DNA of 64,000 nucleotides, taken from NCBI RefSeq assembly GCF_016806835.2, contig NZ_CP086113.1, positions 248,001 through 312,000 of the forward strand, read 5' to 3'. Made by a program: the position numbers and the translations under genes. This stretch comes from Skermanella rosea. Lineage in GTDB: Bacteria; Pseudomonadota; Alphaproteobacteria; Azospirillales; Azospirillaceae. Position 1 is the first letter of the stretch, and the number at the start of each line of letters is the position of its first letter. Under the pieces are notes generated by a model that was not told where the DNA came from, made no database searches, and worked only from the letters and a program-made list of their open reading frames with translations. Below are positions 43,142 through 59,326 of the stretch, in pieces.

Positions 43142-43146
43142 GCCGG

Positions 43147-43431: not shown

Positions 43432-44343
43432 ATGGCCCTCATCGCCTACGCCCGCGTCTCCACCGAGGACCAGTCCACGGACTCGCAATTGCTCGCCCTC
43501 CGGCAGGCGGGCTGCTCGACCATCTTCGAGGAGCACGCCTCGGGCGGCGACCGCGACCGGCCGGTGCTTGCCAAGGCGCTCGCCAGCCTGAGGAAGGGCG
43601 ACACCCTGGTGGTCGCCCGGATCGACCGCCTGGCGCGCTCGCTGTTCCACCTGCTCGAGGTGATCGATGGCCTGGAGCGGCGCGGCGTCGCCTTCAAGTC
43701 GCTCGGCGACCCGATCGATACCACCAGCCCGCAGGGCCGGTTCGCCCTGCAGGTGCTGGGAGCGGCGGCCGAGCTGGAACGCGCCCTGATCCGCGAGCGC
43801 TCGGTCGCCGGGCTCCGGGCCGCCGTGGCCCGGGGCAAGGCTCCCGGCAATCCCGGGCTGCGCCGACGGGACCCGGCGGCGCTCGAAAAGGCGCGCCGGG
43901 GCCGCGCCAGCGCCCGCGATGACCTCGTCATCCTGTACGCCCAGGACTTCCTGCCCACCGTGGAGGCGTTGCGCCCGACGGCGCCGTGGGACCGGGTGGT
44001 GCGTGCGCTGAAGGGGGCGGGCAGGAGCCGGCCCTGGGACGGCAAGCCGTGGACGCCCAACAGCCTGATTCGTGCCGTACGGCGGCTGGCCGCGGCCGGA
44101 CTGATCCGCCGGGACGTCCTCGACCCGGCGCCCAAGCGCGTCGACAGCGACGACCTGGTCCTGATGGTGGCGGGCCTGGCGCGGTCCGAGCCCGGCATCA
44201 CGCTCGACGGCATCGCGCGCCGGATGCAGGCGATGGGGCAGCGCACGCCGCGCGGCGGCCTGCGCTGGAGCCGCTCGTCGGTGAAGAACCTGCTGGACCG
44301 TGCCCGGGAACAGGGGCTGATACGTGAGGAGCAGCCGGCCTGA
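43432..44343 (+). CDS. Serine recombinase (resolvase), paralogue outside the transposon
   Basis: A 303-residue protein collinear with the transposon resolvase: MALIAYARVSTEDQSTDSQL with catalytic Ser, VVARIDRLARSLFHLLEVID, SLGDPIDTTSPQGRFALQVL, then the same type of long helical C-terminus (PWDRVVRALKGAGRSRPWDG; RWSRSSVKNLLDRAREQGL). It probably resolves dimers of the host replicon. The upstream flank was invaded by the Tn402-like element. The stretch 44344-44551 downstream has no recognised gene. Confidence 0.82.
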   Translation: MALIAYARVSTEDQSTDSQLLALRQAGCSTIFEEHASGGDRDRPVLAKALASLRKGDTLVVARIDRLARSLFHLLEVIDGLERRGVAFKSLGDPIDTTSPQGRFALQVLGAAAELERALIRERSVAGLRAAVARGKAPGNPGLRRRDPAALEKARRGRASARDDLVILYAQDFLPTVEALRPTAPWDRVVRALKGAGRSRPWDGKPWTPNSLIRAVRRLAAAGLIRRDVLDPAPKRVDSDDLVLMVAGLARSEPGITLDGIARRMQAMGQRTPRGGLRWSRSSVKNLLDRAREQGLIREEQPA

Positions 44344-44551: not shown

Positions 44552-46357
44552 TCAGTAACGGCCGTTTGCCCGCATCATGGCATCGACACGGGCCTGCGCG
44601 GATTCCAACGCTGCCGCGATCGTCTTCGCGCCTGTCAGCATATCGTGGATCTCCTCGCCGGCAATGGAGACGATTCGGGGTAGCTCGGCTATCGGTGGGC
44701 GAGGCCACATCTGCAGCAGGCCCGTGCGTGCCATCTGGTCGATGGCCGGAATGATGGGCGAGATGGCCGAAACCTGAGGGTCGCTGCTGACACTGAACCT
44801 TGGGCTGACGACGCTGCCGTTCATCAGGTACAGCTTGGTGGCGCTGGGGGAGGTGAGGGTGCGCAACGCGGCCCAGGAGGGCTCGATCCGCTCCGGCGCC
44901 AGATTGGCCGGGATCGCCAGCGCATAGCCGCCAAGCGGCGCCACGGGGTGGCCGGCCGGGCCGGGCGGATGGGGCAGGTAGCCGGTGTTCCCACGAGCGG
45001 GGGAGGAAGGATTGAGTTCGAACAGCGGCGCCAGGAGGGAGTAGCAATAGGCCATGGCGACCTTGCCCTGGGCGTAGCATTGCGCCCGTTCATACCAGGA
45101 CATGTTGAGGATGTTCGGTGGTGAATAATCCAGCAGGGCGCGCAGGTATTCCGCCGTTTCCCGCGCCGCGTCGGACAGGAACATCGGCTTGAAGTTCCCG
45201 CCTTCGACAGTCTCGCCGTCGAAGCCGTCGCCTGCCCTGCGCAGGTTGATGACGGGCTGGCCGAAGGCCGCCATGATCATGATGAACGAATGGCCGACCG
45301 GTGTTCCACGGGCCGCATTCCAGGCGATACCGCTGAAGTTGCGGCCCGGTGCATGCAACTGGCGAGCCGCCTCCAATGTGTCGGCGGCGGTGAGCGGCGC
45401 CGGGATGCCGGCTTCCTCGAGCAGGTCCTCGCGATAGCACATCAGTTCGGGCGTGGTCTGGACGGGAATGCCGAACTGCCCGCCGTGATAGCGGGTGCTG
45501 GCCACCGCTTCGGGATGGAAATCGGAGATGTCGTGTCGGTCCCGGGCCAGCAGATCGTTGAGCGGCAACAACATTCCCTGAGATGCCAGTTCGCCGAACC
45601 AGGGCAGGTCGCACGCGATGATATCGTAACGTGAATTCGGTGCTGCGGCATTCCTGTGGATCTCTTCGCGCAGCCGGTCGATCGTGAGCGCCCGGCTGCC
45701 GATCCCGACGCCGAAGATCATCTCGAACTGCTTCTTCAGCGTGTTCATCGCCATGAAGGTGGGGTCCGCATGGACCAGGATGCGAAGGTCCCCCTGCAGG
45801 TTCAGCTTCTTCTCCAGGACGGCCGGCGGCGGGATGATCCGCGCCGACATGTAGGAGGCGCCGAAGAAATAGTCATTGCCGTGTCCCGGCCGCGTGTCCA
45901 TGCCGAACACGGACCCCAGCAGCGTCTTGATGCGCCGCGCATATTCCTCCCATTCCCGGATCAGTTCGGTCGACGGATGGAGCGAGTAGGCCCTGCCGGC
46001 TTTCGTGCGGGGCCGCTTGATCACCAGCCCGCGCTCGATGACGCTGGTGACGGCGCGCGATGCCGTTCCGTAGGTCAGGCCGGATGCTGCGGCCAGCGAG
46101 GACGGGGTCGTCAGGCGGCCCGCCAAGTGGTTGCGCATCAAATGCACCATCATGCGGACTTCCCGATAGCCGCCGCGCATCGCCAGCGCCTGTTCTGTCT
46201 CATCCTCCAGACGCTCGATGAACTCCACGAACCGGGACAGCTCCGAATTCGAGATACGCGGGGGCGGGATATGGCCATTCGTGCCGTATGGCCCTTCCGA
46301 CAGGGAATCTGGTTTCGCTCCTGCGCCTTGCGCGGTCCTTTTCACGTGTATCGACAT
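44552..46357 (-). CDS. Regulator fusing a winged helix to an ABC-type solute-binding-protein domain
   Basis: About 601 residues from ATG 46357. Residues roughly 30-150 form a MarR-like winged helix (FVEFIERLEDETEQALAMRG, LTTPSSLAAASGLTYGTASR, VIERGLVIKRPRTKAGRAYS). From about residue 195 the sequence is a family-1-type extracellular solute-binding protein fold: DLRILVHADPTFMAMNTLKK, YDIIACDLPWFGELASQGML, GGQFGIPVQTTPELMCYRED and a C-terminal FLSDAARETAEYLRALLD region. There is no signal peptide, so the binding domain would work in the cytoplasm as a ligand sensor. The gene is divergent from the ribose-type importer and probably controls it. An in-frame extension to 46468 is possible. Confidence 0.78.
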   Translation of the reverse strand: MSIHVKRTAQGAGAKPDSLSEGPYGTNGHIPPPRISNSELSRFVEFIERLEDETEQALAMRGGYREVRMMVHLMRNHLAGRLTTPSSLAAASGLTYGTASRAVTSVIERGLVIKRPRTKAGRAYSLHPSTELIREWEEYARRIKTLLGSVFGMDTRPGHGNDYFFGASYMSARIIPPPAVLEKKLNLQGDLRILVHADPTFMAMNTLKKQFEMIFGVGIGSRALTIDRLREEIHRNAAAPNSRYDIIACDLPWFGELASQGMLLPLNDLLARDRHDISDFHPEAVASTRYHGGQFGIPVQTTPELMCYREDLLEEAGIPAPLTAADTLEAARQLHAPGRNFSGIAWNAARGTPVGHSFIMIMAAFGQPVINLRRAGDGFDGETVEGGNFKPMFLSDAARETAEYLRALLDYSPPNILNMSWYERAQCYAQGKVAMAYCYSLLAPLFELNPSSPARGNTGYLPHPPGPAGHPVAPLGGYALAIPANLAPERIEPSWAALRTLTSPSATKLYLMNGSVVSPRFSVSSDPQVSAISPIIPAIDQMARTGLLQMWPRPPIAELPRIVSIAGEEIHDMLTGAKTIAAALESAQARVDAMMRANGRY

Positions 46358-46664
46358 GGTCCTGTCCAGTTTGGATGTCGGCCGTCCGGTGCTGCCTCGC
46401 GTCGGATTTGGCAAGCATAACAGCCGTCGTGCCGCCGGTGCCGAATCTTCCAGTTCACCTGAATTCATCCATATTGAATTGATATCAAATGGCTTTCTCC
46501 AGCTTGTGGGCCACAAGATGTCCAAGATGGATAAATTAGCCGGCGCATTTTTATGCTGCCTGGGATTAGCATTGAAAATCGAAAGGGGCGGTCGGCCGGA
46601 AAGAGCACTGCGAAGCCATACCAATCAAGTGCGACAGCCTCCAAATAAACCTGGGAGAAACGTC
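46358..46664. promoter_or_regulatory. Divergent promoter region with candidate operator
   Basis: A 307-bp gene-free region between the fusion regulator and the solute-binding protein gene. It is AT-rich compared with its surroundings and contains the exact palindrome TTGATATCAA at 46479-46488, embedded in a longer imperfect dyad from 46469 to 46492. This is the best candidate binding site for the divergent regulator. GGGAGA at 46652-46657 is the ribosome-binding site of the next gene. Confidence 0.45.
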
Positions 46665-47600
46665 ATGAAGGTCGAGACACTTGCCGTTGCTGCGGCGATC
46701 ACAATTGCTTCCACCGGCTTCGTTTCCGCTGATACCATACGGATCGGCATTACCCAAAACAATGTGGGTGTTGACAGTTATCAGACAACCTATGAAAAAG
46801 CATTTCTGGAAGCGGCGAAGGCCAATCCCGATGTCGAGGCCGTGGTTCTCGACGCTGGCGGCGATGTCGCCCGCCAGATCGGCCAGTTGCGGGACCTGGT
46901 CCAGCAACGCGTCGATGTGATCATCATCTGGCCGACCAACGGCCAGGCCGTGGTCCCCGGAATCCGTCAGGCCGATCGCGCCGGCATCCCGGTCGTGGTG
47001 ACCAATTCCAAGATCGCCGAAGCGGGCAACGAGTTCATCGCGGCATTCTCCGGTCCCGACAATATCGCCCAGGGCCGCCACGCGGCGGAAATGATGTGCG
47101 AAGCGCTGGATGGCAAGGGCCAGATCGTGCAGATCGCCGGTCAGCCGGGCTACACCACCGCCATGGAGCGCGCACAAGGTTTCGAGGAGCGGCTGGCGGA
47201 GGCTTGCCCCGATGTCGAGCTGATGGAAACCCAGCCGGCCGACTGGAACCGCGAGAAGGCCCAGCGGGTCATGGAGAACTTCCTGACCAAATACGACCGG
47301 ATCGACGGTGTCTATGCCGGCGACGACAATATGGGCGTCGGCGCGCTGAACGCCGCGAAGGCCGCCGGACGCAAGGACATCGCTTTCATCGGCGCCACCA
47401 ATTTCGCGGTCGGTTACGAAGCGATGGAGCGGGGCGAATATTACGGATCGGTCTATCAGTCCCCGGTCGAGGATGCCCGCAATGCCTTGAATACCGCTGT
47501 CGCCGTTGTCAAAGGCGAGGAAGTTCCGAAGTTCAATTACTTTGACACACCCAAGATCACCAAAGACTCCGTCGCCCAGTTCGATAAGCCGGTGTTCTGA
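46665..47600 (+). CDS. Ribose-type ABC importer, periplasmic substrate-binding protein
   Basis: A 311-residue protein with a cleavable signal peptide (MKVETLAVAAAITIASTGFV, cleavage after SA) and the peripla_BP_4/RbsB fold: DTIRIGITQNNVGVDSYQTT, QIGQLRDLVQQRVDVIIIWP, GIPVVVTNSKIAEAGNEFIA, QIVQIAGQPGYTTAMERAQG, DGVYAGDDNMGVGALNAAKA. Proteins of this class bind sugars, cyclitols and related polar small molecules. It heads an operon with two permeases and an ATPase. Confidence 0.88.
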   Translation: MKVETLAVAAAITIASTGFVSADTIRIGITQNNVGVDSYQTTYEKAFLEAAKANPDVEAVVLDAGGDVARQIGQLRDLVQQRVDVIIIWPTNGQAVVPGIRQADRAGIPVVVTNSKIAEAGNEFIAAFSGPDNIAQGRHAAEMMCEALDGKGQIVQIAGQPGYTTAMERAQGFEERLAEACPDVELMETQPADWNREKAQRVMENFLTKYDRIDGVYAGDDNMGVGALNAAKAAGRKDIAFIGATNFAVGYEAMERGEYYGSVYQSPVEDARNALNTAVAVVKGEEVPKFNYFDTPKITKDSVAQFDKPVF

Positions 47601-47723
47601 TCCGACCGGCCGACAGGCCGCAACAGACAGCCACGACTACTGAAATCACGCGGGGGAGCTGCCCAGCCGGGCGGCTTCCAACCCTCACCACATTCAAAAT
47701 CAGGCCAAAATCAGGAGCAGCCC

Positions 47724-48512
47724 ATGGGCACGATGTCGAACCGCACATGTATCGTCACAGGATCCGCCAAGGGGATCGGCCGGGCGATCGGCGAAGCCCT
47801 GCTTCGCGACGGCGCCAACGTGGTCTTCGCCGACCTGGACGCGAGCGTCACCGAAACTGCCGAGCAGGCGAACCGGCACGCCGACGGCGGCCGCGCCATC
47901 GGCATCCGGATGGATGTCACCGACCGCGCCGAGGTGCGCGGGGCGGTCGAGCGCACGGTGGAGGAATTCGGCTCGCTCGACGTGATGTTCAACAATGCCG
48001 GCGTCAACAAGCCGATGAACTTCATGGACGTGACTGAGGACAACTGGAACTTCATTATGAAGATCAACGGGCTGGGTGTGCTGATCGGCACCCAGGAGGC
48101 GGCCCGCCAGATGATCGCGCAGGGCAAGGGCGGCAAGATCGTCAATACCGCGTCCATCGCCAGCCGCCAGGGCTTCGACAACGTCGCCCCCTACTGCGCG
48201 TCCAAATTCGCGGTTCTTTCGCTGACCCAATCGGCCGCCCGCGCGCTCGCCAAGCACAAGATCACGGTCAACGGCTTCGCCCCCGGCGTGGTCGCGACCG
48301 AGCTGTGGAAGCAGCTCGACAAGGACCTGATGGAGATCGGCGCCAGCGAGCGGCCGGGTCAGGCCATCGAGGAGTTCTCGACCGGCATTCTGCTTGGCCG
48401 GCCGGCACTGCCGGACGACCTGACCGGGACTACGTCGTTCCTCGCCTCTCCGGCATCCGACTACATGACCGGCCAGATCATCATGATCGATGGCGGCATG
48501 ATCCTGGTCTAG
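47724..48512 (+). CDS. SDR-family NAD(P)-dependent dehydrogenase
   Basis: A 262-residue short-chain dehydrogenase: CIVTGSAKGIGRAIGEALLR (coenzyme binding), FADLDASVTE (acidic residue after beta-2 suggests NAD preference), FNNAGVN, catalytic IVNTASIASRQ and YCASKFAVLS, end YMTGQIIMIDGGMILV. It lies between the binding protein and the permeases, an unusual place that argues it acts on the imported compound, probably oxidising a hydroxyl group. AGGAG is 7 nt before the ATG. Confidence 0.88.
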   Translation: MGTMSNRTCIVTGSAKGIGRAIGEALLRDGANVVFADLDASVTETAEQANRHADGGRAIGIRMDVTDRAEVRGAVERTVEEFGSLDVMFNNAGVNKPMNFMDVTEDNWNFIMKINGLGVLIGTQEAARQMIAQGKGGKIVNTASIASRQGFDNVAPYCASKFAVLSLTQSAARALAKHKITVNGFAPGVVATELWKQLDKDLMEIGASERPGQAIEEFSTGILLGRPALPDDLTGTTSFLASPASDYMTGQIIMIDGGMILV

Positions 48513-48635
48513 CGAGCCTCGATCGTAGGTCGGCACACGCAAGTCCAGGCAAGTCCAGGCGAAGAAATCGCCACGCCGGGAGCGCGGGTATCCGCTCTCC
48601 CGGCGCAGGGAAAACCCGAATGCGGGGGGAAGACG

Positions 48636-49646
48636 ATGGCAACCCAACAAGGTGTCAGCGTACAGAAGACAACAAGCCTTTTCGACCGCGAGAGAATAGC
48701 AAGGGTATTGACGCAGCAGGGCATCCTGTTGGCCTTCGTCGTCTTCCTCGCGGCGTTTGCCCTTCTGTCCGACCGTTTCCTGTCGACCGACAACATCATG
48801 ACGGTGATCCGGCAAGCCTCGATCGTCGGCGTCATCGCCATCGGGGTCACCGTCGTCATCATCGGCGGCAATCTGGATCTCTCGGTGGGATCGATGCTGT
48901 CCTTCGCGACCGTCATCGTGGTCGACCTGCACGACAAGGTCGGACCGGAACTGGCGATCGTCGGAATGTTCGCCGCGGTCCTGCTGGCGGGCGCCGTCAA
49001 CGGCCTGCTGGTCGGGTATTTGCGGTTGAACTCCCTGATCGTCACGCTGGGCATGCTCTCGGTCATCCAGGGCGTCACGCTGATCTATACCGGCGGGCAG
49101 AATGTCGATATCGCCAACCAAGCCGACACCTGGTTCGCGGTCTTCGGGCGCGGGTTCGTCCTCGGCGTCGCGGTGCCGGTGGTGATCTTCCTGGGGCTAG
49201 CATTGGTGGCCGATCTGGTCATGCGCTACACATCCTACGGCCGCAAGATCTTCGTCGTCGGCGGAAATCCCACGGCGGCCGTCTTCTCCGGGCTGCGGCG
49301 CTCGCGGCTGGTCTTCAGCACCTATCTGCTGTCGGCCTTCGCGACCGCCTGCGCGGCCCTGATCCTGGGCTCCCGCGTGATGGGATCGCAGAACAATGTG
49401 GGGCAGGGCTATGAACTGCTGGTCCTGGCCGGCATCATCCTGGGCGGAACCAGCCTGCTGGGAGGATCGGGCAGCATCTGGAAGACCGTGATCGGCGTCA
49501 TGATCCTGGGCTTCATCCAGAACGGCCTGCTGCTGCTGGGATATCCCTACTACACGCAATGGTTGGTCACTTGGGTCGTCATCATCCTGGCGGTTTGGCT
49601 CGACCTCGCGTCCCGGCGCCGCCGCCTGTTCACCGCGTTCTCCTGA
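48636..49646 (+). CDS. Ribose-type ABC importer permease 1
   Basis: A 336-residue RbsC/BPD_transp_2 permease with about 8-10 hydrophobic segments (GILLAFVVFLAAFALLS; ASIVGVIAIGVTVVIIGGNL). The signature GNLDLSVGSMLSFATVIVVD is conserved. The cytoplasmic coupling loop is YGRKIFVVGGNPTAAVFSGL. A second, related permease follows, so the importer has a heterodimeric membrane domain. Confidence 0.87.
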   Translation: MATQQGVSVQKTTSLFDRERIARVLTQQGILLAFVVFLAAFALLSDRFLSTDNIMTVIRQASIVGVIAIGVTVVIIGGNLDLSVGSMLSFATVIVVDLHDKVGPELAIVGMFAAVLLAGAVNGLLVGYLRLNSLIVTLGMLSVIQGVTLIYTGGQNVDIANQADTWFAVFGRGFVLGVAVPVVIFLGLALVADLVMRYTSYGRKIFVVGGNPTAAVFSGLRRSRLVFSTYLLSAFATACAALILGSRVMGSQNNVGQGYELLVLAGIILGGTSLLGGSGSIWKTVIGVMILGFIQNGLLLLGYPYYTQWLVTWVVIILAVWLDLASRRRRLFTAFS

Positions 49647-49701
49647 TCCTTCCACCGATGACTCTTCCACCGATCCAAGGGCGAACCCTGGAGGAAACAC
49701 C

Positions 49702-50661
49702 ATGTCCGCACTTCGCCGTCTACTGACCGGCCGCGGCGCCGTTCAGCCGATCTGGCTCTTCGTCATCCTGATCACGCTGCTGTTCAGCCTGACGGCCGAT
49801 CATTTCCTCGATTTCAACAATTTCATGAACATCCTGATCCAGACCTCGACCATCGGTCTGATCGCGCTGGGCATGACCTACGTCATGATCAACGGCAACA
49901 TCGACCTTTCGGTCGGCGCCGTGCTGGCGCTGGCGGCCACCCTGTCGGTCGACCTGCAATCCTACGGCTTGGGCGTGGCGGTGGTCGCCGCCCTGCTCAG
50001 CGGGATCGCACTGGGCGCGCTGAACGGCCTGATCGTCTGGAAGACCGGGGTCAGCGCCTTCATCGTCACGCTGGGTGCCATGATCGGCATCCGCGGCCTC
50101 GTCTTCATCTATACCGGCGAGCAGTCGTTCTACGCCGAGAACTTCGCCTTCTCCGACTTCGGCGTCAGCACCATCGGCCCGGTCCCCACGCTGGCGGTCA
50201 TCTTCCTGGGTTTCACGGCCGTGATGCACTGGGTCCTGACCCGCACCGTCCATGGCAGCAACATCTTCGCCGTCGGCGGCAACCGCGAGGCCGCTACCGA
50301 TGCCGGCATCCGCGTCGGCCGGCACATGGTCATCAACTTCATGATCGTCGGATTCTTCGCGGCGCTGGCCGGCGTCACGCTGGCGACCCAGATGGGCGCC
50401 TCGACCCCCAACCTGGGCCGCGACTACGAGCTGTGGACGATCACCGCCGTGGTCCTGGGCGGCACCAAGCTGACCGGCGGCTCCGGCAGCATCACCGGCA
50501 CGCTGGGCGGCGTTCTCGCCATCGGCATCCTGCGCAACGGGATGAACCTGATGCAGGTCCCCGCCTTCTACGTGCTCGTCATCATGGGGCTGATCCTGAT
50601 CGCCGTGCTGCTGCTCGACAGCCGGGTCAACCGCCGCTCCGGACAGGAGGTCCAGGCATGA
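49702..50661 (+). CDS. Ribose-type ABC importer permease 2
   Basis: A 319-residue RbsC-like permease: IGLIALGMTYVMINGNIDLS, VGAVLALAATLSVDLQSYGL, and the coupling loop HGSNIFAVGGNREAATDAGI. It shares family motifs with the upstream permease but is clearly diverged. The stop overlaps the ATPase start (ATGA), so translation is coupled. Confidence 0.87.
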   Translation: MSALRRLLTGRGAVQPIWLFVILITLLFSLTADHFLDFNNFMNILIQTSTIGLIALGMTYVMINGNIDLSVGAVLALAATLSVDLQSYGLGVAVVAALLSGIALGALNGLIVWKTGVSAFIVTLGAMIGIRGLVFIYTGEQSFYAENFAFSDFGVSTIGPVPTLAVIFLGFTAVMHWVLTRTVHGSNIFAVGGNREAATDAGIRVGRHMVINFMIVGFFAALAGVTLATQMGASTPNLGRDYELWTITAVVLGGTKLTGGSGSITGTLGGVLAIGILRNGMNLMQVPAFYVLVIMGLILIAVLLLDSRVNRRSGQEVQA

Positions 50662-52238
50662 CACACGCAATCCAGACCAACTCATCACCTACCGGTGTCC
50701 GACAGGCCCAAGACGAACCCGTGCTGATCCTGCAGGGCATCACCAAGCGCTTTCCCGGCGTCGTCGCCCTCAACAAGGTGGACTTCACCGTCCGCGCCGG
50801 GGAGGTCCACGCCCTGCTCGGCGAGAACGGCGCCGGCAAATCGACCCTGATGAAGATCCTGGCCGGCAAGCACCATGCCGAGGAGGGCCGGATCCTGCTC
50901 GAAGGCGAGGAGGTCAGGCTGGAAAGCCCGATCCAGGCCAAGCAGCGCGGGATCGTGCTGATCCACCAGGAACTGTCCCTGGTGCCGGAAATGACCGTGG
51001 CCGAAAACATCTATCTCGGCAGCCTGCCCATGAAGTGGGGCAACCGGATCGACTGGAAAAAGCTGCGCGCCGATGCCGGGGCCATCCTGAAGCGGCTGCA
51101 ATGCTCCTTCGGTCCCGACGACATCGTCGCCGACCTGTCCATCGCCCGGAAGCAGATGGTCGAGATCGCCCGCGCACTGGCCTTCACCCCGAAGATCGTC
51201 ATCTTCGACGAGCCGACCGCCTCGCTGACCGACCACGAGAAGCCCGTCCTGTTCGGCATCATCCGGACCTTGCAGGAGCATGGCGTCGGGGTGGTCTACA
51301 TCTCGCACCGCATGGACGAGATCTTCACCCTGTCCCAGCGCATCAGCGTGCTCCGCGACGGCGAGTACCGCGGCACTGTCGATACCGCGGATACCAACGA
51401 GGACGAGGTCACCCGGCTGATGATCGGGCGCAGCCTGGAACTCGACCAGAGCGCCAAGCCGAAGGAATTCGGCGAGACCGTGCTGGACGTGCGCCGTCTC
51501 GGCATCGACGGGGTGTTCGAGGACATCAGCTTCAGCGTCGCCAAGGGCGAGATCGTCGGCATGTACGGCCTGATTGGGGCCGGACGGTCGGAGATCGCCG
51601 AGACCCTGTTCGGCCTGCGCCGGCCGTCCACGGGCGAAATCCGCCTTGAGGGCGAGGTGGTGACGATCCACTCGCCGACCGATGCGGTGCGGCGCGGCCT
51701 CGCCCTGGTGCCGGAAAGCCGCAAGGAGCAGGGGCTGGTCCTGGGCATGAACTGCCGGGACAACATGACCATCGCCCAGATCGACCGGCTGTCCAGCCGC
51801 GGCGTGCTGAACCAGAAGAAGGAGTTGGAGGTCTACGAGAAATATGCCCGCGAGCTGAAGGTGAAGACCCCCGGCTGGGCCGAGAAGGTCGGCAATCTCA
51901 GCGGCGGCAACCAGCAGAAGATCGTCATCGGCAAATGGCTCAGCACCCATCCGAAGCTGCTGATCCTGGACGAGCCGACCCGCGGCATCGACGTCGGCTC
52001 CAAGGCCGAAATCCACAGCTTGATCAAGCAGTTGGCGAAGTCGGGCTACGCGATCCTGGTGATCTCGTCGGAAATGCCGGAGGTGCTGGGCGTCAGCACC
52101 CGCGTGCTGGCCCTGTATTCCGGCCGCATCACGGGGGAGTTCGATGCCGACGCGGTGACCGAGGACGACCTTGTCCAGGCCATCACCGGCCAGACGACGC
52201 ATGGAAAAGCGGCAGGAAACATGGGAGCTGTAGCATGA
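50658..52238 (+). CDS. Ribose-type ABC importer ATP-binding protein (double ATPase)
   Basis: A 526-residue RbsA-type protein with two ATPase domains. First: Walker A LLGENGAGKSTLMKIL, Walker B IVIFDEPTASLT, with signature region DLSIARKQMVEIARAL. Second: degenerate Walker A GLIGAGRSEIAETLFG, signature NLSGGNQQKIVIGKWL, Walker B LLILDEPTRGIDVGSK. This arrangement is typical of sugar and autoinducer importers. ATG 50658 overlaps the permease stop, and its stop overlaps the next ATG. Confidence 0.9.
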   Translation: MTHAIQTNSSPTGVRQAQDEPVLILQGITKRFPGVVALNKVDFTVRAGEVHALLGENGAGKSTLMKILAGKHHAEEGRILLEGEEVRLESPIQAKQRGIVLIHQELSLVPEMTVAENIYLGSLPMKWGNRIDWKKLRADAGAILKRLQCSFGPDDIVADLSIARKQMVEIARALAFTPKIVIFDEPTASLTDHEKPVLFGIIRTLQEHGVGVVYISHRMDEIFTLSQRISVLRDGEYRGTVDTADTNEDEVTRLMIGRSLELDQSAKPKEFGETVLDVRRLGIDGVFEDISFSVAKGEIVGMYGLIGAGRSEIAETLFGLRRPSTGEIRLEGEVVTIHSPTDAVRRGLALVPESRKEQGLVLGMNCRDNMTIAQIDRLSSRGVLNQKKELEVYEKYARELKVKTPGWAEKVGNLSGGNQQKIVIGKWLSTHPKLLILDEPTRGIDVGSKAEIHSLIKQLAKSGYAILVISSEMPEVLGVSTRVLALYSGRITGEFDADAVTEDDLVQAITGQTTHGKAAGNMGAVA

Positions 52239-52963
52239 GGGCGGCACTCTTCGTCGGCGGCTGGGAAGGCCACAATCCCGAGCGGTTCCAGCGCTGGGCG
52301 ACCGAACTGCTGGAAGCCAACGGCTTCACCGTCGAGACCTTCGACGCGCTGGCCCCGCTGGCCGACCGCGAGAAGATGAAGTCGGTCGATCTGATCGTGC
52401 CGATCTGGTCGAGCGCGCGGTCCGCCCACCGGCCGGAGTTCGGCAGCATGGAAAAGGCCGAGGAGGACGGCCTGCTGGCCGCCATCGCCGACGGCTGCGG
52501 CATCGCCGGCTGGCACGGCCATATGGGCGACGCCTTCCGCGACCGGCCGACTTACCATTTCCTGATCGGCGGGCAGTTCGTCGCCCATCCGCCGGGCTGG
52601 CCGGACAACCCGGTGCCGTCGGACGACTTCATCGACTACGACGTCAACATCGTCTCCGGCCATCCCATCGTCGAGGGCATCGGCGATTTCCGGATACATT
52701 CCGAGCAGTACTACATGCTGGTCGATCCGTCCAACGAGGTGCTCGCCACCACGACCTTCAGCGGCGAGCACCTGCACTGGATCGAGGGCGCCGTGATCCC
52801 GGTGACCTGGATCCGCCGCTGGGACAAGGGCCGCGTCTTCTACTGCTCCATCGGGCATTCGGTCGAATGCCTGGATGTGCCGCAGGTCCGCGAGATGATC
52901 CGCCGCGGGATGATCTGGGCGGCCCGCAAGCGCCAAGGCGAAGCGGGGAGGGTGCCGTCATGA
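52235..52963 (+). CDS. ThuA-like (glutamine amidotransferase-like fold) protein
   Basis: A 242-residue protein: MRAALFVGGWEGHNPERFQR, GCGIAGWHGHMGDAFRDRPT, YHFLIGGQFVAHPPGW, SEQYYMLVDPSNEVLATTTF, PVTWIRRWDKGRVFYCSIGH. These are the conserved blocks of ThuA/trehalose-utilisation domain proteins, which often accompany sugar ABC importers; their chemistry is poorly defined (some are linked to 3-keto-sugar or dehydrogenase systems). The start and stop codons both overlap neighbours by 4 bp, so it is firmly part of the operon. Confidence 0.82.
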   Translation: MRAALFVGGWEGHNPERFQRWATELLEANGFTVETFDALAPLADREKMKSVDLIVPIWSSARSAHRPEFGSMEKAEEDGLLAAIADGCGIAGWHGHMGDAFRDRPTYHFLIGGQFVAHPPGWPDNPVPSDDFIDYDVNIVSGHPIVEGIGDFRIHSEQYYMLVDPSNEVLATTTFSGEHLHWIEGAVIPVTWIRRWDKGRVFYCSIGHSVECLDVPQVREMIRRGMIWAARKRQGEAGRVPS

Positions 52964-54321
52964 CCGGGACCCTGTTCAAAGACGCCACCATCGTCACCAT
53001 GGACCCCGCGCTCGGGGACTTTCCGGCGGCCGACCTGCTGGTCGAGGACGGGCGCATCGCCGCCATCGGCCGCGAGATACCGGCCGAAGGGCGCGAGGTG
53101 GTGGACTGCCGCGGCCGCATCCTGATACCCGGTCTGGTCAACGCCCACATGCACACCTGGCAGACGGCCTTGCGGGCGGTCGCCTCCAACTGGACGCTGC
53201 TGGAATATTTCCGGCACGTCCACCGGGGGCTCGCCACCCTGTTCCGGCCCGAGGACATCCATATCGCCACGCTGGCCGGGGGTTGGAACCAGATCAATTG
53301 CGGCACCACCACCCTGGGCGACTGGTGCCACAACAACCCGACGCCGGAGCACACCGACGCCGCGGTGGACGCCCTATTCGAATCCGGCATCCGGGCGGTC
53401 TTCCTGCACGGCTCGCCCAAGCCGGACCCCAAGCCCGGACAGCCGCATTTCAGCGAGGTACCGCACCCGCGCGGCGAGGTCGAACGCCTGCTGCGCGGGC
53501 GGCTCGCCGACCGCGGCGGCCGGGTCACGCTGGCGCTGGCGATCCTTGGGCCGCACTATTCGACCCTGGACGTCTCAATGCACGATTTCCGGCTCGCCCG
53601 CGAATTCGGGCTGGTCGCCTCGATGCACCAGGGCGGCGGCGAGGCCCGTACGCCCGGCGGTTGGGACGTGCTGGAGAGCAGCGATCTGGTCGGGCGCGGT
53701 ATCAACATCGTCCACGGCCATGGCCTGCCGGCGGAGCAACTGGACCGCTTCGCCGACCTGGGCGTCAGCTTTTCGGTCACGCCCGAGAACGAGATGACCC
53801 AGGGCCACGGTTTTCCGATCACCGGGGCGGTGCGGCGGGCGGGCGGTACCCTGTCACTGGGCGTCGATCTGGAATCGGTGCTGTCCGGCGACATGTTCAC
53901 GGTCGCCCGCATGGCGCTCGGCATGCAGCGCGCGCTGGACAATGACGAAAGCCGCCGTTCCACCGGCAGCATCCCGGAAACCTCGACCATCACGACGCGC
54001 GAGGCGCTGGGCTGGATCACCATCGACGGGGCGCGGGCGCTCGGCATCGACGACCGGACCGGCAGCCTGACGCCGGGCAAACAGGCCGACCTCGTGCTGC
54101 TGCGCGCCGACGACCTGAACATGTGGCCGGTGCACGACCCGGTGTCGTCGGTGGTCATGCAGGCCGGCCTCGCCAACGTGGACAGCGTGATGGTCGGCGG
54201 ACGCTTCCTCAAGCGCCATGGTCGGCTGCTGGCCGGGGACATCGAGAACAGAAAGCAGGAACTGGCCGAATCCGGTCGCCGCATCGTCGCGGAAATACGC
54301 CTGCGCGAACAGACGGGGTAG
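52960..54321 (+). CDS. Amidohydrolase-superfamily deaminase/hydrolase (TrzN/SsnA-like)
   Basis: A 453-residue metal-dependent hydrolase. Metal ligands: NAHMHTWQTAL (H-x-H), LVASMHQGGGE, IVHGHGLP and LGVDLESVL (Asp). The N-terminal beta-sandwich (VEDGRIAAIGREI; GRILIPGL) and C-terminal AIDDRTG-type GSLTPGKQADLVLLRADD are typical of the subgroup that deaminates or dechlorinates cyclic substrates such as triazines and purine-like rings. In this pathway it could remove an amino group from, or open a ring of, the imported compound. The actual substrate is unknown. Confidence 0.82.
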   Translation: MTGTLFKDATIVTMDPALGDFPAADLLVEDGRIAAIGREIPAEGREVVDCRGRILIPGLVNAHMHTWQTALRAVASNWTLLEYFRHVHRGLATLFRPEDIHIATLAGGWNQINCGTTTLGDWCHNNPTPEHTDAAVDALFESGIRAVFLHGSPKPDPKPGQPHFSEVPHPRGEVERLLRGRLADRGGRVTLALAILGPHYSTLDVSMHDFRLAREFGLVASMHQGGGEARTPGGWDVLESSDLVGRGINIVHGHGLPAEQLDRFADLGVSFSVTPENEMTQGHGFPITGAVRRAGGTLSLGVDLESVLSGDMFTVARMALGMQRALDNDESRRSTGSIPETSTITTREALGWITIDGARALGIDDRTGSLTPGKQADLVLLRADDLNMWPVHDPVSSVVMQAGLANVDSVMVGGRFLKRHGRLLAGDIENRKQELAESGRRIVAEIRLREQTG

Positions 54322-54326
54322 GAAAG

Positions 54327-55247
54327 ATGAAACAGCAACAGGACAAGCCTGTCGCCTGGATCGGCCTCGGCAAGCTGGGCCTTCCGATGGCGGCCCGACT
54401 GGCGGACGCCGGATGGCGGGTCCGCGGCTGCGACAGGGACCCCGGCCGGCTCCGGCTGGGGGCCGAACGCGGCATCGCCATTGCCGACGACATGGCGGCG
54501 GCGGTGGCCGGCTGCCCGGTGGTGTTCGCCTCGCTGCCCGACGACCGGGTGTTGCGCGAGGTGGCGCTCGGCGGCGACCTGATCGGCCTCATGGAGCGCG
54601 GGTCCGTCCTGGTGGAGACCAGCACGGTCAGCGTCGCGGCCTCGCAGGAGGTGGCATCGGCGGCGGCGGCGCGCGGCGTAGCATATCTTCGATCGCCGGT
54701 GTCGGGCAACCCGGTGTCGGCCGAGGCGGGCGCGCTCAGCGCCCTGGTCTCGGGACCGCGTGATGCGTTCGACGCCGTCCGCCCGCTGCTCGCCACCTTC
54801 ACCCGCGCCCAAAGCTGGCTCGGCGAGGAGGAACAGGGGCGGTTCGCCAAGCTGGCGATCAACCTGATGATCGCGGTCAGCGCCGGCATGATGGGCGAAG
54901 CGCTCGCCATCGCGCGGCGCGGCGGCATCGGCTGGGACGACATGCTGGCGGTGATGTCCGACAGCGCGGTCGGCTCGCCGATGGTCAAGTACAAGATCGA
55001 CCCGCTGGCCCAGCGGGATTTCACCGCGACCTTCTCGTGCCGGCAGATCGCCAAGGACCTCGACCTGATCCTGGCCTGCGCCCGCGATGCCGGGGTGCCG
55101 GTCTCGTTGGCCGCCCAGATGCGTGAAGCCTACTCCGCCATCATCGCCATGGGGGAGGGCGGCGACGATTACATCGCCACGGTCCGCCATGTCGAGCGTC
55201 TGGCCGGATTGCCCGCCGTGAAGCCCGACGTGAAGGCCGCCGGCTGA
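54327..55247 (+). CDS. 3-hydroxyisobutyrate-dehydrogenase-family oxidoreductase
   Basis: A 306-residue beta-hydroxyacid dehydrogenase: N-terminal VAWIGLGKLGLPMAARLADA (GxGxxG), then a phosphate-loop region GCDRDPGRLR, catalytic-site block YLRSPVSGNPVSAEAGALSA and the conserved Lys helix GRFAKLAINLMIAVSAGMMG, ending in an all-helical domain. The family oxidises beta-hydroxy acids (3-hydroxyisobutyrate, tartronate semialdehyde, 6-phosphogluconate). GGAAAG precedes ATG 54327, 5 bp after the amidohydrolase stop. Confidence 0.83.
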   Translation: MKQQQDKPVAWIGLGKLGLPMAARLADAGWRVRGCDRDPGRLRLGAERGIAIADDMAAAVAGCPVVFASLPDDRVLREVALGGDLIGLMERGSVLVETSTVSVAASQEVASAAAARGVAYLRSPVSGNPVSAEAGALSALVSGPRDAFDAVRPLLATFTRAQSWLGEEEQGRFAKLAINLMIAVSAGMMGEALAIARRGGIGWDDMLAVMSDSAVGSPMVKYKIDPLAQRDFTATFSCRQIAKDLDLILACARDAGVPVSLAAQMREAYSAIIAMGEGGDDYIATVRHVERLAGLPAVKPDVKAAG

Positions 55248-55266
55248 CGTGTAAAAGGAGAGACCT

Positions 55267-56127
55267 ATGCGCAATCTCAACGAGAACAACATCACCGATG
55301 CGGTCATTGCCCGTTTCCAGGGCTGCGACGACCCGCGGCTCAAGGCCGTCCTGACCAGCCTCGTGAAGCACCTGCACGCCTTCGTCCGCGATGTCGAGCC
55401 GACCGAGCAGGAATGGGCCTTCGGCATCGATTTTCTGACCCGCACCGGGCACATGTGCGACGACAAACGGCAGGAGTTCATCCTGCTGTCCGACACGCTG
55501 GGTGTCACCATGCTGGTCGATGCGATCAATCACCGGATCGCGGGCAAGGCCACCGAGAGCACGGTGCTCGGGCCGTTCTACGTGGCCGATCCGCCCGAGA
55601 CCCCCATGGGCGGCGGCATCGGCTGGAACGTCGAGGGCGAACCGTTGTTCGTCGAAGGGCAGGTGCGCTCCGCCGAGGGCTCGCCGCTGTCCGGTGTGGT
55701 CGTCGATGTCTGGCAGTCCGACGGCGACGGCTTCTACGACGTACAGAAATCCGGCATGGACAGCCCGTCGCTGCGCGCCCGCTTCCGCACCGGCGCGGAT
55801 GGCCGCTACGCCTTCTGGGCGGTGACGCCGTCGGCCTATCCGATCCCGACCGATGGGCCGGTGGGCCAGATGCTGGAAGCGACCGGTCGCCACCCGTACC
55901 GCCCCGCCCACGTCCACTTCATGCTCAAGGCCGACGGCTTCGAGACGCTGGTGACCCAGGTCTTCGCCGAGGGCGACAGCTACCTGGATTCCGACGCCGT
56001 GTTCGGGGTCAAGGACTCGCTGGTCAGGACCTACGAGCAGCGGCCACCCGGAAAGGCACCCGACGGCCGGGTGGTGGAGCGCCCTTGGCGCCACCTTTCC
56101 TACGATTTCGGCCTCAAGCCTCTGTGA
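55267..56127 (+). CDS. Intradiol ring-cleavage dioxygenase, probably hydroxyquinol 1,2-dioxygenase
   Basis: A 286-residue enzyme with the helical dioxygenase N-terminal domain (EFILLSDTLGVTMLVDAINH, ESTVLGPFYVADPPE) and the catalytic beta-sandwich. Iron(III) ligands are Tyr157 (DGFYDVQ), Tyr191 (SAYPIPTDGP), His215 and His217 (YRPAHVHFML). The downstream maleylacetate reductase makes hydroxyquinol (1,2,4-trihydroxybenzene) the likely substrate, giving maleylacetate; catechol or a substituted catechol is the alternative. No upstream hydroxylase is in the cluster. Confidence 0.85.
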   Translation: MRNLNENNITDAVIARFQGCDDPRLKAVLTSLVKHLHAFVRDVEPTEQEWAFGIDFLTRTGHMCDDKRQEFILLSDTLGVTMLVDAINHRIAGKATESTVLGPFYVADPPETPMGGGIGWNVEGEPLFVEGQVRSAEGSPLSGVVVDVWQSDGDGFYDVQKSGMDSPSLRARFRTGADGRYAFWAVTPSAYPIPTDGPVGQMLEATGRHPYRPAHVHFMLKADGFETLVTQVFAEGDSYLDSDAVFGVKDSLVRTYEQRPPGKAPDGRVVERPWRHLSYDFGLKPL

Positions 56128-56169
56128 AGGCTCGGCACCCTCAAAACAACCCATGACACAGGAATCATC

Positions 56170-56760
56170 ATGAATACGCTCGACAGCCACGCCCTCGACC
56201 TGCTGTTCCACGAAGCCCGCTCCCAGAACGGCTGGCGCGACGAGCCGGTCACCGAAGAGCAACTGCGCCGGCTCTACGAGATCATGCAATGGGGGCCGAC
56301 CTCGATGAACTGCCAGCCCCTGCGCATCCTGTTCCTCCGCTCGCCCGAGGCCAAGGAGCGGCTGCAACCGGCGCTGATGCCGAACAATGTCGCCAAGACA
56401 ATGTCGGCCCCGGTGGTCGCGATCCTCGGCTACGACACGAAATTCTACGAGAACCTGCCGCGCACCTTCCCGCACAACCAGAAGGCCAAGTCCCTCTTCG
56501 AAGACAAGCCGGACTTCGCCGACACCACCGCGTTCCGCAACAGCTCGATCCAGGGCGGCTACTTCATCATCGCGGCCCGCGCGGTCGGGCTGGACGCCGG
56601 CCCCATGTCCGGCTTCGCCAACCCCAAGGTCGATGCCGAGTTCTGGCCCGACGGCCGGGTGAAGAGCAATTTCCTGTGCGGCCTGGGCCAGGGCGATCCG
56701 GAAAAGGTCTTCAACCGCAGCCCGCGCCTCGCCTTCGACGAGGTCTGCACCCTGGTTTAG
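56170..56760 (+). CDS. Nitroreductase-family protein, RutE/HadB-like
   Basis: A 196-residue flavin reductase of the nitroreductase superfamily. The N-terminus LDLLFHEARSQNGWRDEPVT, EEQLRRLYEIMQWGPTSMNC and QPLRILFLRSPEAKERL, and the C-terminal FLCGLGQGDPEKVFNRSPRL, match the RutE (malonic semialdehyde reductase) subgroup in length and motif. Here it could reduce a semialdehyde or quinone product of the ring-cleavage route, or regenerate hydroxyquinol from its quinone. That role is inferred. Confidence 0.8.
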   Translation: MNTLDSHALDLLFHEARSQNGWRDEPVTEEQLRRLYEIMQWGPTSMNCQPLRILFLRSPEAKERLQPALMPNNVAKTMSAPVVAILGYDTKFYENLPRTFPHNQKAKSLFEDKPDFADTTAFRNSSIQGGYFIIAARAVGLDAGPMSGFANPKVDAEFWPDGRVKSNFLCGLGQGDPEKVFNRSPRLAFDEVCTLV

Positions 56761-56778
56761 TCAGCAAAGGCAATCACC

Positions 56779-57867
56779 ATGGACTCATTCACATACGAAG
56801 GTCTGCCGTCCCGCGTGGTGTTCGGCTGGGATGCGCTGGCAAGCCTGCCCGCCGAGATCGACCGCCTCGGCGTGCGCCGCGTCCTGGTGCTCGCCACCCC
56901 GCCCCAGCGGGCCGAGGCGGACCGCATCGCCGGGCTGATCGGGGACCGGGCGGCAGGATTGTTCGCCGGGGCGGTGATGCACACCCCGGTGGAGGTCACG
57001 GAGCAGGCGCTGGCGGTGGTCCGGGAATGCGGGGCCGATGCGACGCTGGCGGTCGGCGGCGGCTCGACCACGGGACTCGGCAAGGCGGTCGCGGTGCGCA
57101 CCGACCTGCCCCAGATCGTCGTTCCGACGACCTATGCCGGGTCGGAAATGACGCCGATCCTCGGCGAGACCGAGAACGGCGTCAAGACGACCCGGCGCGA
57201 TCCGCGCATCCTGCCCGAACTCGTGGTGTACGATCCGGCGCTCACGCTGTCGCTGCCCCCGGCCCTGTCGGCGACCAGCGGCATGAACGCCATCGCCCAC
57301 GCGGTCGAGGCGCTTTATGCCCGCGACCGCAACCCGATCGTCTCGCTGATGTCCGAGGAAGGCATCCGCGCGCTGGCCTCGGCACTCCCGGCCATCGTCC
57401 GGGACCCGGCGGATTGGAAAGCCCGCGAGCGGGCGCTCTACGGGGCGTGGCTGTGCGGCGTGGCGCTCGGCACCGTGGGCATGGCGCTCCACCACAAGCT
57501 CTGCCATGTGCTGGGCGGCAGCTTCGACCTGCCGCACGCCGAGACGCACACGGTGGTGCTGCCCCACGCCGTCGCCTACAACGCCGCCGCGGCGCCCGCG
57601 GCCATGGCCGCGGTCGAGCGGGCGCTGGGAGGCAGGCAGGGACACCGGTCGGCGGCCGAGGGGCTGCGCCGGCTCGCCGAGGCGGTCGGCGCGCCGGTCG
57701 CGCTGAAGGACATCGGCATGCCCGCCGACGGGATCGACCGCGCCGCCGATCTCGCCACCGCCAACCCCTACTGGAACCCGCGGCCCATAGAACATGCGGC
57801 GATCCGCGCCCTGATCGAGGACGCCTGGGAAGGGCGATCCCCCGGCGCCACCGTCCCGCGTGCCTGA
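56779..57867 (+). CDS. Maleylacetate reductase (iron-type alcohol dehydrogenase family)
   Basis: A 362-residue enzyme: SRVVFGWDALASLPAEIDRL, coenzyme motif LAVGGGSTTGLGKAVAVRTD, VVPTTYAGSEMTPILGETEN, LSATSGMNAIAHAVEALYAR and the histidine-rich ALHHKLCHVLGGSFDLPHAE, all hallmarks of maleylacetate reductase rather than other group III alcohol dehydrogenases. It converts maleylacetate to 3-oxoadipate with NAD(P)H. With the dioxygenase it forms the classic hydroxyquinol lower pathway. Confidence 0.87.
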   Translation: MDSFTYEGLPSRVVFGWDALASLPAEIDRLGVRRVLVLATPPQRAEADRIAGLIGDRAAGLFAGAVMHTPVEVTEQALAVVRECGADATLAVGGGSTTGLGKAVAVRTDLPQIVVPTTYAGSEMTPILGETENGVKTTRRDPRILPELVVYDPALTLSLPPALSATSGMNAIAHAVEALYARDRNPIVSLMSEEGIRALASALPAIVRDPADWKARERALYGAWLCGVALGTVGMALHHKLCHVLGGSFDLPHAETHTVVLPHAVAYNAAAAPAAMAAVERALGGRQGHRSAAEGLRRLAEAVGAPVALKDIGMPADGIDRAADLATANPYWNPRPIEHAAIRALIEDAWEGRSPGATVPRA

Positions 57868-57919
57868 AACCACCGCATCACCTTCATGAGGCAAGAAGAA
57901 TTCCTTGAAAGGGAGAGTC

Positions 57920-58750
57920 ATGCCCAGACCTGTCGTCATCGCCGTGGCGATCACCGGCTCGGTTCCGCGCAAGAGGGACAATCCGGCCTTGCCGGTCACT
58001 CCGTCGGAGCAGATCGAATCCACCCACGAGGCCTTCGAGGCCGGGGCCACCCTCGTGCACATCCATGTGCGGAACCCGGATGAGTCCTCGTCCTCCGACC
58101 CCAAGCTGTTCGCCCAGGTCCAGGAGGGCGTCCGAAAGCACTGCCCCGGCATGATCGTGCAGTTCTCGACGGGCGGCCGGGGCCGCAGCCAGGAGGAGCG
58201 CGGCGCTGCGCTGTCGCTGCGGCCGGAGATGGCGTCTCTGGCGACCGGTTCGGTCAACTTCCTGACCATCGTGTACGAGAACCCGCCCGCGCTGATCGAG
58301 CATCTGGCGCGCACCATGCTGGAATACGACATCAAGCCGGAGATCGAGATCTTCGACCTGGCGATGCTCTACAACACCCGCAAGCTGGTTGACCGCGGCC
58401 TGCTGAGGGAGCCCGTGCACGTCCAGTTCGTCATGGGCATCCAGAATGCCCTGCCGGCCCGGCGAAACGTGCTGGAGTTCATGGTCTCCGAACTTCAGCA
58501 CGTGCTGCCGACCGCGACCTGGACGGCGGCCGGCATCGGGCGGCATCAGCTTGAGCTGAGCCGCTGGGCTCTGGAGTTGGGCGGCCATCTCCGCACCGGC
58601 CTGGAGGACAACATCCGGGTCAACAAGGAGCGCCTCGCCGCCAGCAACGCCGAACTGGTCAGGATCACCGCCGACCTGTGCGCCGAGTTCGGCGCTCGCC
58701 CGGCCACGGCCGCCGAGGCCCGACATTTGTTCGGCATCCAGGCAAGCTGA
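57920..58750 (+). CDS. BKACE (beta-keto acid cleavage enzyme, DUF849 family)
   Basis: A 276-residue zinc-dependent enzyme: VVIAVAITGSVPRKRDNPAL, LPVTPSEQIESTHEAFEAGA, TLVHIHVRNPDESSSSD (His-x-His zinc ligands), IVQFSTGGRGRSQEERGAAL, EIEIFDLAMLYNTRKLVD, VQFVMGIQNALPA. BKACEs condense a beta-keto acid with acetyl-CoA and cleave it to acetoacetate plus a new acyl-CoA. Next to a route ending in 3-oxoadipate, the natural products would be succinyl-CoA and acetoacetate, substituting for PcaIJ and PcaF. GGGAGAG lies before ATG 57920. Confidence 0.85.
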   Translation: MPRPVVIAVAITGSVPRKRDNPALPVTPSEQIESTHEAFEAGATLVHIHVRNPDESSSSDPKLFAQVQEGVRKHCPGMIVQFSTGGRGRSQEERGAALSLRPEMASLATGSVNFLTIVYENPPALIEHLARTMLEYDIKPEIEIFDLAMLYNTRKLVDRGLLREPVHVQFVMGIQNALPARRNVLEFMVSELQHVLPTATWTAAGIGRHQLELSRWALELGGHLRTGLEDNIRVNKERLAASNAELVRITADLCAEFGARPATAAEARHLFGIQAS

Positions 58751-59165: not shown

Positions 59166-59326
59166 AACAGCCTGACGCAGGAGGTTGCGATGATGAAGCG
59201 GAATCGGCAATCGGATCGATCTGGGCGGGCTCCTCTGCGGTCACTTGGCCGGCCCCCCGTAGCGCAACGTGAGGAGCGTCAGCAATTCTGCACTCCTCCA
59301 GTGCCGGGGAGAGAAAGTCCGGGCGG

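Follow-up and report, generated by a model that had tools for sequence, protein, structure and literature searches.

A plus-strand operon of Skermanella rosea joins a sugar-type importer to a predicted hydroxyquinol pathway that may be entered from an imported carbocycle

We analyzed a 64,000-nucleotide stretch of Skermanella rosea DNA (contig NZ_CP086113.1, positions 248,001 to 312,000; hereafter the window), in which 12 co-oriented genes on the plus strand, at window positions 46665 to 58750, combine a sugar-type importer with enzymes predicted to degrade hydroxyquinol. All the families that a preliminary description of this DNA had placed on one strand were found here. The set begins with genes for an RbsB-like periplasmic substrate-binding protein (SBP; 46665 to 47600), a short-chain dehydrogenase/reductase (SDR; 47724 to 48512), two permeases (48636 to 49646 and 49702 to 50661), and an AraG/RbsA-like ATPase (50658 to 52238), and the matches to Peripla_BP_4 (SBP), BPD_transp_2 (both permeases), and two ABC_tran stretches (ATPase) identified the transport proteins as an ATP-binding cassette (ABC) importer of the CUT2 family. 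These are followed by genes for a ThuA-domain protein (52235 to 52963; Pfam ThuA, 137 bits), a metal-dependent amidohydrolase of the PRK08204 subfamily within the TRZ/ATZ group (52960 to 54321; NF006056, 595 bits against a cut-off of 391), and a protein resembling 3-hydroxyisobutyrate dehydrogenase (3-HIBDH) and other beta-hydroxyacid dehydrogenases (54327 to 55247; NAD_binding_2, 121 bits; NAD_binding_11, 77 bits; PDB 1vpd, tartronate semialdehyde reductase, 120 bits). The last four genes encode a hydroxyquinol-type intradiol dioxygenase (55267 to 56127), a RutE-like flavin reductase of the nitroreductase fold (56170 to 56760), a maleylacetate reductase (MAR; 56779 to 57867), and a beta-keto acid cleavage enzyme (BKACE; 57905 to 58750, with the likely ATG at 57920). 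The several 4-bp overlaps noted earlier came to three, one at either end of the ATPase gene and one between the ThuA and amidohydrolase genes, a count that depends on the start codons picked in this analysis.

The preliminary description let the gene set start at 44552, a coordinate that proved to belong to an overlooked regulator gene on the minus strand (44552 to 46357, start codon uncertain), divergent from the SBP gene. Its product fuses a helix-turn-helix (HTH) region, for which MarR_2 scored 20.8 bits, under its 27-bit cut-off, to an SBP_bac_1 domain (Pfam, 81 bits). Homologues were found in related clusters of Phaeobacter, SC52, Marinovum, Shinella (35%; locus L189), Halomonas, Marinobacterium, and Sinorhizobium B11, and HTH-SBP fusion regulators stand beside CUT2 importers in several orders.

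The lower half of the operon gave the clearest family assignments. The dioxygenase scored 313 bits with PDB entry 1tmx (hydroxyquinol 1,2-dioxygenase), 307 bits with 8r2x, and 281 bits with 3n9t, and at most 129 bits with catechol dioxygenases; by PDB sequence scores it is thus nearer to the hydroxyquinol enzymes. The best matches of the MAR were 3jzd (475 bits), named only as an iron-containing alcohol dehydrogenase, 3w5s (437 bits), a maleylacetate reductase, and 3hl0 (433 bits). The BKACE exceeded the curated cut-off of the 3-oxoadipate:acetyl-CoA family NF053568 (469 versus 350 bits; PDB 3no5, 371.5 bits), and no sequence difference from this family was noted. These assignments suggested that the dioxygenase would convert hydroxyquinol to maleylacetate, that the MAR would reduce the latter to 3-oxoadipate, and that the BKACE would use acetyl-CoA to yield succinyl-CoA and acetoacetate, a step that could replace PcaIJ/PcaF. 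We regard this order of reactions, which supports the earlier proposal on both the 3-oxoadipate-forming pair and the BKACE, as very probable. BKACE chemistry has been described for a different substrate (PMC6365646).

Five BKACE-family proteins are encoded in the S. rosea genome. The one on contig C4 is 69% identical to that of the window, scored 466 bits with NF053568, and lies about 11 kb from a gene for QuiC (3-dehydroshikimate dehydratase) and about 15 kb from pobA. The one on contig C1 is 71% identical, was not scored against NF053568, and is found in a locus with benA, muconate cycloisomerase, and intradiol dioxygenase genes, adjoining PcaI and PcaJ homologues. This benzoate/catechol locus (G000:C1:5560102-5567298 and beyond; L141, L184) perhaps holds two routes for finishing 3-oxoadipate side by side. 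In addition, a second hydroxyquinol-type dioxygenase gene, whose product is 56% identical to that of the window, is present at C3:379595-380449 (L140), and no pathway genes were recognized among the neighbors scanned.

The upper half was harder to assign to a substrate. The SBP fell below the NCBIfam equivalog cut-offs, including RbsB (135 of 337 bits) and the rhizopine SBP (31 of 420 bits), and no named CUT2 substrate class could be given; rhizopine catabolism was rejected on the latter score. The same protein is 73 to 79% identical to its Halomonas and Marinobacterium counterparts and 67 to 70% identical to those of roseobacters. The SDR (TIGR02415, 274 bits against a cut-off of 304; PDB 3wye, 222 bits) is nearest to acetoin reductase/2,3-butanediol and sorbitol dehydrogenases. 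For the protein formerly called a nitroreductase, the fold held, and more exactly the protein lies above the cut-off of the RutE malonic semialdehyde reductases (NF003768, 296.5 versus 152 bits). Neither RutA, RutB, RutC, and RutD, for lack of which the uracil (Rut) pathway was rejected, nor IolG, IolE, and IolD of the classical iol pathway were found among the operon genes, to which the latter search was confined.

A gene-neighborhood search, as the preliminary description had suggested, was made with the amidohydrolase against genome contigs, and the gene set recurred. Of 588 confirmed relatives, the 80 best loci were retained, and presence of the other genes was judged from tblastn hits; the dioxygenase was found in 45; 43 of these 45 had a MAR, 41 a 3-HIBDH-like gene (at least 40% identity), and 35 a CUT2 importer, and the 35 loci (of the 80) with both importer and dioxygenase included those of Halomonas, Bradyrhizobium, and others. 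A chance neighborhood was rejected because the genes come together again in further genera and orders. The nearest clusters belong to Marinobacterium (L022) and to Halomonas or its kin (L024, L025, L026, and L032); their importer proteins are 68 to 81% identical to those of the window, and they also carry the SDR, the regulator, the RutE-like gene, and a TauE/SafE permease. The permease is conserved within these clusters and is perhaps an exporter of a released anion. Clusters in Bradyrhizobium, Bosea, Xanthobacter, and others combine MAR, amidohydrolase, 3-HIBDH-like, and dioxygenase genes with a GlcD-like FAD oxidase, a different CUT2 importer, and, in most cases, YciI. The BKACE is not a fixed member of the gene set, being in view in two of the 45 dioxygenase-bearing loci, 3' of the related genes in Halomonas L024 (NF053568, 494 bits) and Caballeronia L091 (490 bits). 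When 385 genomes were sampled evenly across the class, the dioxygenase was present in 47 of them, the amidohydrolase in 15, and both in seven, and in three of these seven (G000, which is S. rosea itself, G121, and G438) the two genes were neighbors.

To place the importer association on a phylogeny, a quick tree was built from 73 dioxygenases (104 before near-copies were removed), collected via the amidohydrolase search and the TIM-barrel search described below, with four labels set by hand; four rows with both an importer and a panel hydroxylase (see below) were lost as near-copies. The CUT2 label changed seven times on the tree, at least four changes being forced by starred branches, and shuffled labels required 14.8 changes on average, with none of 500 shufflings as low as seven. 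The count reflects repeated association with the importer and not the frequency of that association. The window dioxygenase grouped with those of Marinobacterium and Halomonas (SH-aLRT, 100).

Profile scans detected no ring hydroxylase among the operon genes, in agreement, as far as searched, with the preliminary description. A panel of four flavin hydroxylases was positive in eight of the 45 dioxygenase loci and gave no match in 29 of the 35 that also had a CUT2 importer, although the tblastn panel as a whole misses distant hydroxylases and distant importers (L019, L181, and L188 were unmarked for CUT2 despite an importer by annotation or gene order). The S. rosea genome had no HpaB match, as compared with matches in four of 14 control genomes, and 19 FAD_binding_3 matches, of which two exceeded 35 bits as single matches and represent PobA and a UbiH-family protein; a third candidate reached 39.7 bits only together with in-frame neighbors. 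A hydroxylase linked to the Bradyrhizobium clusters had no match in this genome at 1e-20, and this empty search, made without a positive control, shows little. A hydroxylase for the same regulon elsewhere in the genome had been named as a refutation of the earlier reading, and for the HpaB and FAD_binding_3 families no strong single match was found apart from PobA and the UbiH-family protein, P450, diiron, and molybdenum enzymes and Rieske enzymes beyond BenA lying outside the count; BenA itself indicates that Rieske enzymes exist in this genome. These results bear on a conventional hydroxyquinol pathway, in which the hydroxylase would be encoded elsewhere and the importer would serve another purpose in the operon. 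That pathway shares the dioxygenase and MAR with the window, which in contrast lacks a ring hydroxylase, adds the CUT2 importer, SDR, ThuA protein, amidohydrolase, and 3-HIBDH-like enzyme, and ends with a BKACE. It would be favored by the oxygenase classes outside the count and by the finding that a hydroxylase accompanies the dioxygenase in certain loci of Bradyrhizobium, Bosea, and Burkholderiales and in further plasmid clusters, whereas the genome search and the repeated importer association on the dioxygenase tree make it decidedly improbable.

The importer module was also found in roseobacters. Phaeobacter (L009) and SC52 (L010) have the regulator, SBP, SDR, permeases, ATPase, and ThuA genes, with 46 to 72% identity to the window, and Marinovum (L186) has the same module minus ThuA. 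Unlike the window, these clusters carry E1/E2 subunits (scoring as pyruvate-dehydrogenase-like in L009), a succinate semialdehyde dehydrogenase, and a second SDR; L009 and L010 do have a 3-HIBDH-like gene, but with only 28 to 31% identity to that of the window, and no dioxygenase or other ring-cleavage gene is present in the stretches shown. The imported compound thus need not be aromatic, and other cleavage chemistry may follow import in roseobacters. The window ThuA protein is 70 to 72% identical to that of the roseobacter module and had no PDB match at 1e-5; its gene is absent from four same-genus genomes examined, and no match was found in the five closest clusters (L022, L024, L025, L026, and L032), so ThuA was rejected as the key enzyme. 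One genome, G001, gave no dioxygenase match.

The preliminary description had proposed a deamination in the formation of the ring, and this part was not borne out. When aligned to deaminases 7ww2, 3hpa, and 4f0r, the amidohydrolase has a glycine at the column of the HxxE glutamate expected of TRZ/ATZ aromatic deaminases and chlorohydrolases; a glutamate lies two residues beyond it (MHQGGGE), but not in every relative. Deamination is thus not the obvious reaction of this enzyme, and simple aromatic deamination is weakened as an explanation. The same glycine bears on the view that the imported ring is already aromatic or heterocyclic, the amidohydrolase stripping a nitrogen, chlorine, or acyl substituent and a side chain being handled by the 3-HIBDH-like and RutE-like proteins, so that hydroxyquinol remains. 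This view draws on the membership of the amidohydrolase in the group of AtzA and deaminases, on its pairing with the 3-HIBDH-like gene without a dioxygenase in view in L028, L029, L034, and L068, with molybdenum-hydroxylase genes near the pair in the first three, and on YciI and FMN reductases beside the dioxygenase in other clusters. Against it stand the glycine and the sugar-type importer, whose orthologues occur in the roseobacter clusters without ring-cleavage genes in view, and we consider it rather unlikely. The amidohydrolase family was also seen near molybdenum-hydroxylase genes in L088 and L090, as in L028, L029, and L034, perhaps as part of another pathway, and L028 additionally has homogentisate-pathway genes.

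Sister clusters provided indirect evidence on the origin of the ring. In Burkholderia WSM2232 (L089) and Caballeronia GAFFF1 (L091), an amidohydrolase of the window type, a CUT2 importer, a Gfo/Idh protein, an SDR, the dioxygenase, an FMN reductase, and a MAR are accompanied by an AP_endonuc_2 TIM barrel. The sole NCBIfam match of the TIM barrel at 1e-10 was QuiC (61 bits in L091 and 44 bits in L181), far beneath the cut-off of 1200 bits, which was set for a longer fused protein, and its PDB matches were Lmo2234 (79 bits), IolI (41 bits), and a 637-residue protein labeled 4-hydroxyphenylpyruvate dioxygenase (40 bits). IolI and QuiC act on carbocycles. Five plasmid neighborhoods of the TIM barrel were opened, in Rhizobium leguminosarum (L181 and L190), Agrobacterium (L187), Azospirillum oryzae (L188), and Shinella (L189). 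All five had the dioxygenase together with SDR or IolG/Gfo genes, four had a CUT2 importer in view (in L187, a binding-protein gene truncated at the end of the stretch was all that could be seen), and four had a MAR (none in view in L189); in L187, an LLM-class flavin enzyme is encoded some 6 kb away from the TIM-barrel gene, and a P450 gene lies upstream in L189. In A. oryzae, the order is dioxygenase, TIM barrel, iolG, Gfo/Idh, chvE-mmsA-mmsB, Dabb, MAR, and IolG exceeds its equivalog cut-off (407 versus 355). The TIM-barrel and dioxygenase genes were within 3 kb in all 23 plasmid records, most of them close Rhizobium relatives, whose TIM barrel is at least 60% identical to that of L181, and in at least two of 20 records below that identity, the dioxygenase matches considered (60 of 308 plasmid records) leaving the other 18 undecided. 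The clusters of R. leguminosarum and A. oryzae resemble the window in having a CUT2 importer, dehydrogenases, the dioxygenase, and a MAR, and differ in having a TIM barrel and IolG/SDR where the window has the amidohydrolase and 3-HIBDH-like enzyme; their importer parts are approximately 25 to 40% identical to those of the window. Of the SDR and the TIM barrel, both seen in sister clusters, the window has an SDR and lacks the TIM barrel. Apart from these, the hydroxyquinol-type dioxygenase gene of Sinorhizobium L134 and L135 is accompanied by genes of the enolase-superfamily, type II dehydroquinase, NTF2-like, and TIM-barrel types, a dehydratase-rich combination.

A published parallel exists in Corynebacterium glutamicum. 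According to the portions of the two reports available, iolT2-rhcM2D2 encodes an inositol importer, a MAR, and a dioxygenase, the enzymes being homologues of those acting on 1,2,4-trihydroxybenzene; from 0.05 mM, this compound interferes with binding by the repressor Cg3388 (IhtR), as do hydroquinone and indole at higher levels, and inositol has no such effect (PMC7764795). The inositol dehydrogenases OxiD and OxiE of oxiC-cg3390-oxiD-oxiE have been proven, and the cluster, iol2, is dispensable on myo-inositol (PMC9603128). Judging from their locus numbers, the two gene groups would be neighbors. As described in those portions, this locus resembles the window type in combining a sugar or inositol importer with a hydroxyquinol-type dioxygenase and MAR, without a hydroxylase in the operon; it differs in that IolT2 is a secondary transporter, in having inositol dehydrogenases and a putative sugar phosphate isomerase, and in that no amidohydrolase or 3-HIBDH-like enzyme is mentioned, nor any natural growth substrate of the dioxygenase operon. 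A route from cyclitols to hydroxyquinol is proposed in neither report as far as their available text goes, and among the literature matches listed, no title or abstract opening linked cyclitols with the formation of hydroxyquinol.

Because CUT2 sister clusters carry IolG/Gfo-Idh/SDR proteins and an IolI/QuiC-like TIM barrel, and because of the C. glutamicum locus, a ring derived from an imported carbocycle, as the preliminary description had suggested, receives indirect support. We infer the substrate and every step upstream of hydroxyquinol as follows. The compound brought in by the CUT2 importer would be sugar-like and polyhydroxylated, the most likely candidate being a carbocycle such as a cyclitol, a deoxycyclitol, or a carboxylated relative. 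NAD-dependent dehydrogenation by the SDR, and probably by the 3-HIBDH-like enzyme too, would be followed by dehydration, and possibly by removal of a substituent through the amidohydrolase and ThuA-like protein, giving hydroxyquinol without an oxygenase; the stoichiometry of deoxyinosose would fit (C6H10O5 − 2 H2O = C6H6O3). In the window, the amidohydrolase and 3-HIBDH-like enzyme would do the jobs of the TIM barrel and Gfo/Idh proteins or act on a substituent, and the RutE-like flavin enzyme may prevent hydroxyquinol from persisting as the quinone. That the operon is catabolic and aromatizes an imported carbocycle to hydroxyquinol, which is then cleaved with the BKACE acting last, is the reading we favor, with a likelihood that we place slightly short of even.

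CUT2 importers, ThuA, AP_endonuc_2, and Gfo/Idh proteins also take part in 3-keto-glycoside catabolism, and the operon could be read in that light. The importer would then take up a glycoside of a hydroxyquinol-type phenol, the sugar would be oxidized (by an SDR, Gfo/Idh, GMC, or FAD oxidase, depending on the cluster), and enzymes of the ThuA or TIM-barrel type would cleave the 3-keto-glycoside, releasing an aglycone that would pass to the dioxygenase. A hydroxylase would be unnecessary here too, and the Gfo protein of L091 scored best with levoglucosan dehydrogenase, at 107 of 650 bits. However, ThuA is unmatched in the five closest clusters, the operon genes include no glycoside hydrolase or sugar kinase, the amidohydrolase is left unexplained, and A. 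oryzae IolG and C. glutamicum OxiD/OxiE (PMC9603128) indicate cyclitols. We consider such a glycoside route unlikely.

Several observations weigh against the derivation of the ring from a carbocycle. A pure cyclitol route offers the amidohydrolase no clear role, IolG, IolE, and TIM-barrel genes are absent from the operon, and a search of the S. rosea genome with the R. leguminosarum TIM barrel found nothing at 1e-25. The oxygenase classes outside the genome count weigh in the same direction, as do the hydroxylases near related clusters: the panel was positive in six of the 35 CUT2 loci, all Bradyrhizobium and within about 10 kb, the B. vaviloviae cluster also has a nearby FAD_binding_3 hydroxylase, which speaks against the reading for this subgroup, and the same hydroxylase family is found near the dioxygenase in Burkholderiales L083 and L096. 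In the class sample, a CUT2 importer was present at one of 38 fetched dioxygenase loci outside S. rosea (of 56 listed), several of these stretches stopping at contig ends; loci of the CUT2 type are a minority.

A broader proposal, which we hold somewhat more tentatively than that for the window, is that bacteria of several orders and Corynebacterium need nothing but dehydrogenation and dehydration to aromatize imported non-aromatic carbocycles to hydroxyquinol, the carbocycles being of the deoxyinosose type and derived from quercitol-like or related cyclitols. An intradiol dioxygenase would come into play only afterwards, to open the ring, and this oxygenase-free entry into aromatic catabolism would have arisen repeatedly, each time with another CUT2 importer. 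If true, this would be a new entry to the hydroxyquinol pathway, in which the aromatic ring is made rather than decorated. It would explain sugar-type importers and inositol dehydrogenases beside hydroxyquinol dioxygenases, and it would suggest a possible role for C. glutamicum iolT2-rhcM2D2 and the 1,2,4-trihydroxybenzene-responsive IhtR. Annotation would also be affected, as such clusters may be labeled as degrading aromatic pollutants.

As for the DNA context, the GC content is 61 to 63% across 45 to 50 kb of the window and 66.5 to 70% across 53 to 59 kb, and the two halves of the operon may thus have separate histories. Genes for TniB, a Mu-type transposase, and two resolvases lie directly upstream (37968 to 44343), and the DNA of this Tni-type transposon is approximately 83% identical to Azospirillum plasmids. 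Of 146 inverted repeats, the 25 longest included no pair seen to mark element ends, as would be expected of transposon cargo, and promoter and terminator scans resembled those of shuffled sequence (1 versus 2.2 and 8 versus 7.7, respectively). Directly downstream, on the opposite strand, an open reading frame with a Fer2 (2Fe-2S) domain is present at 59241 to 60023 (minus strand).

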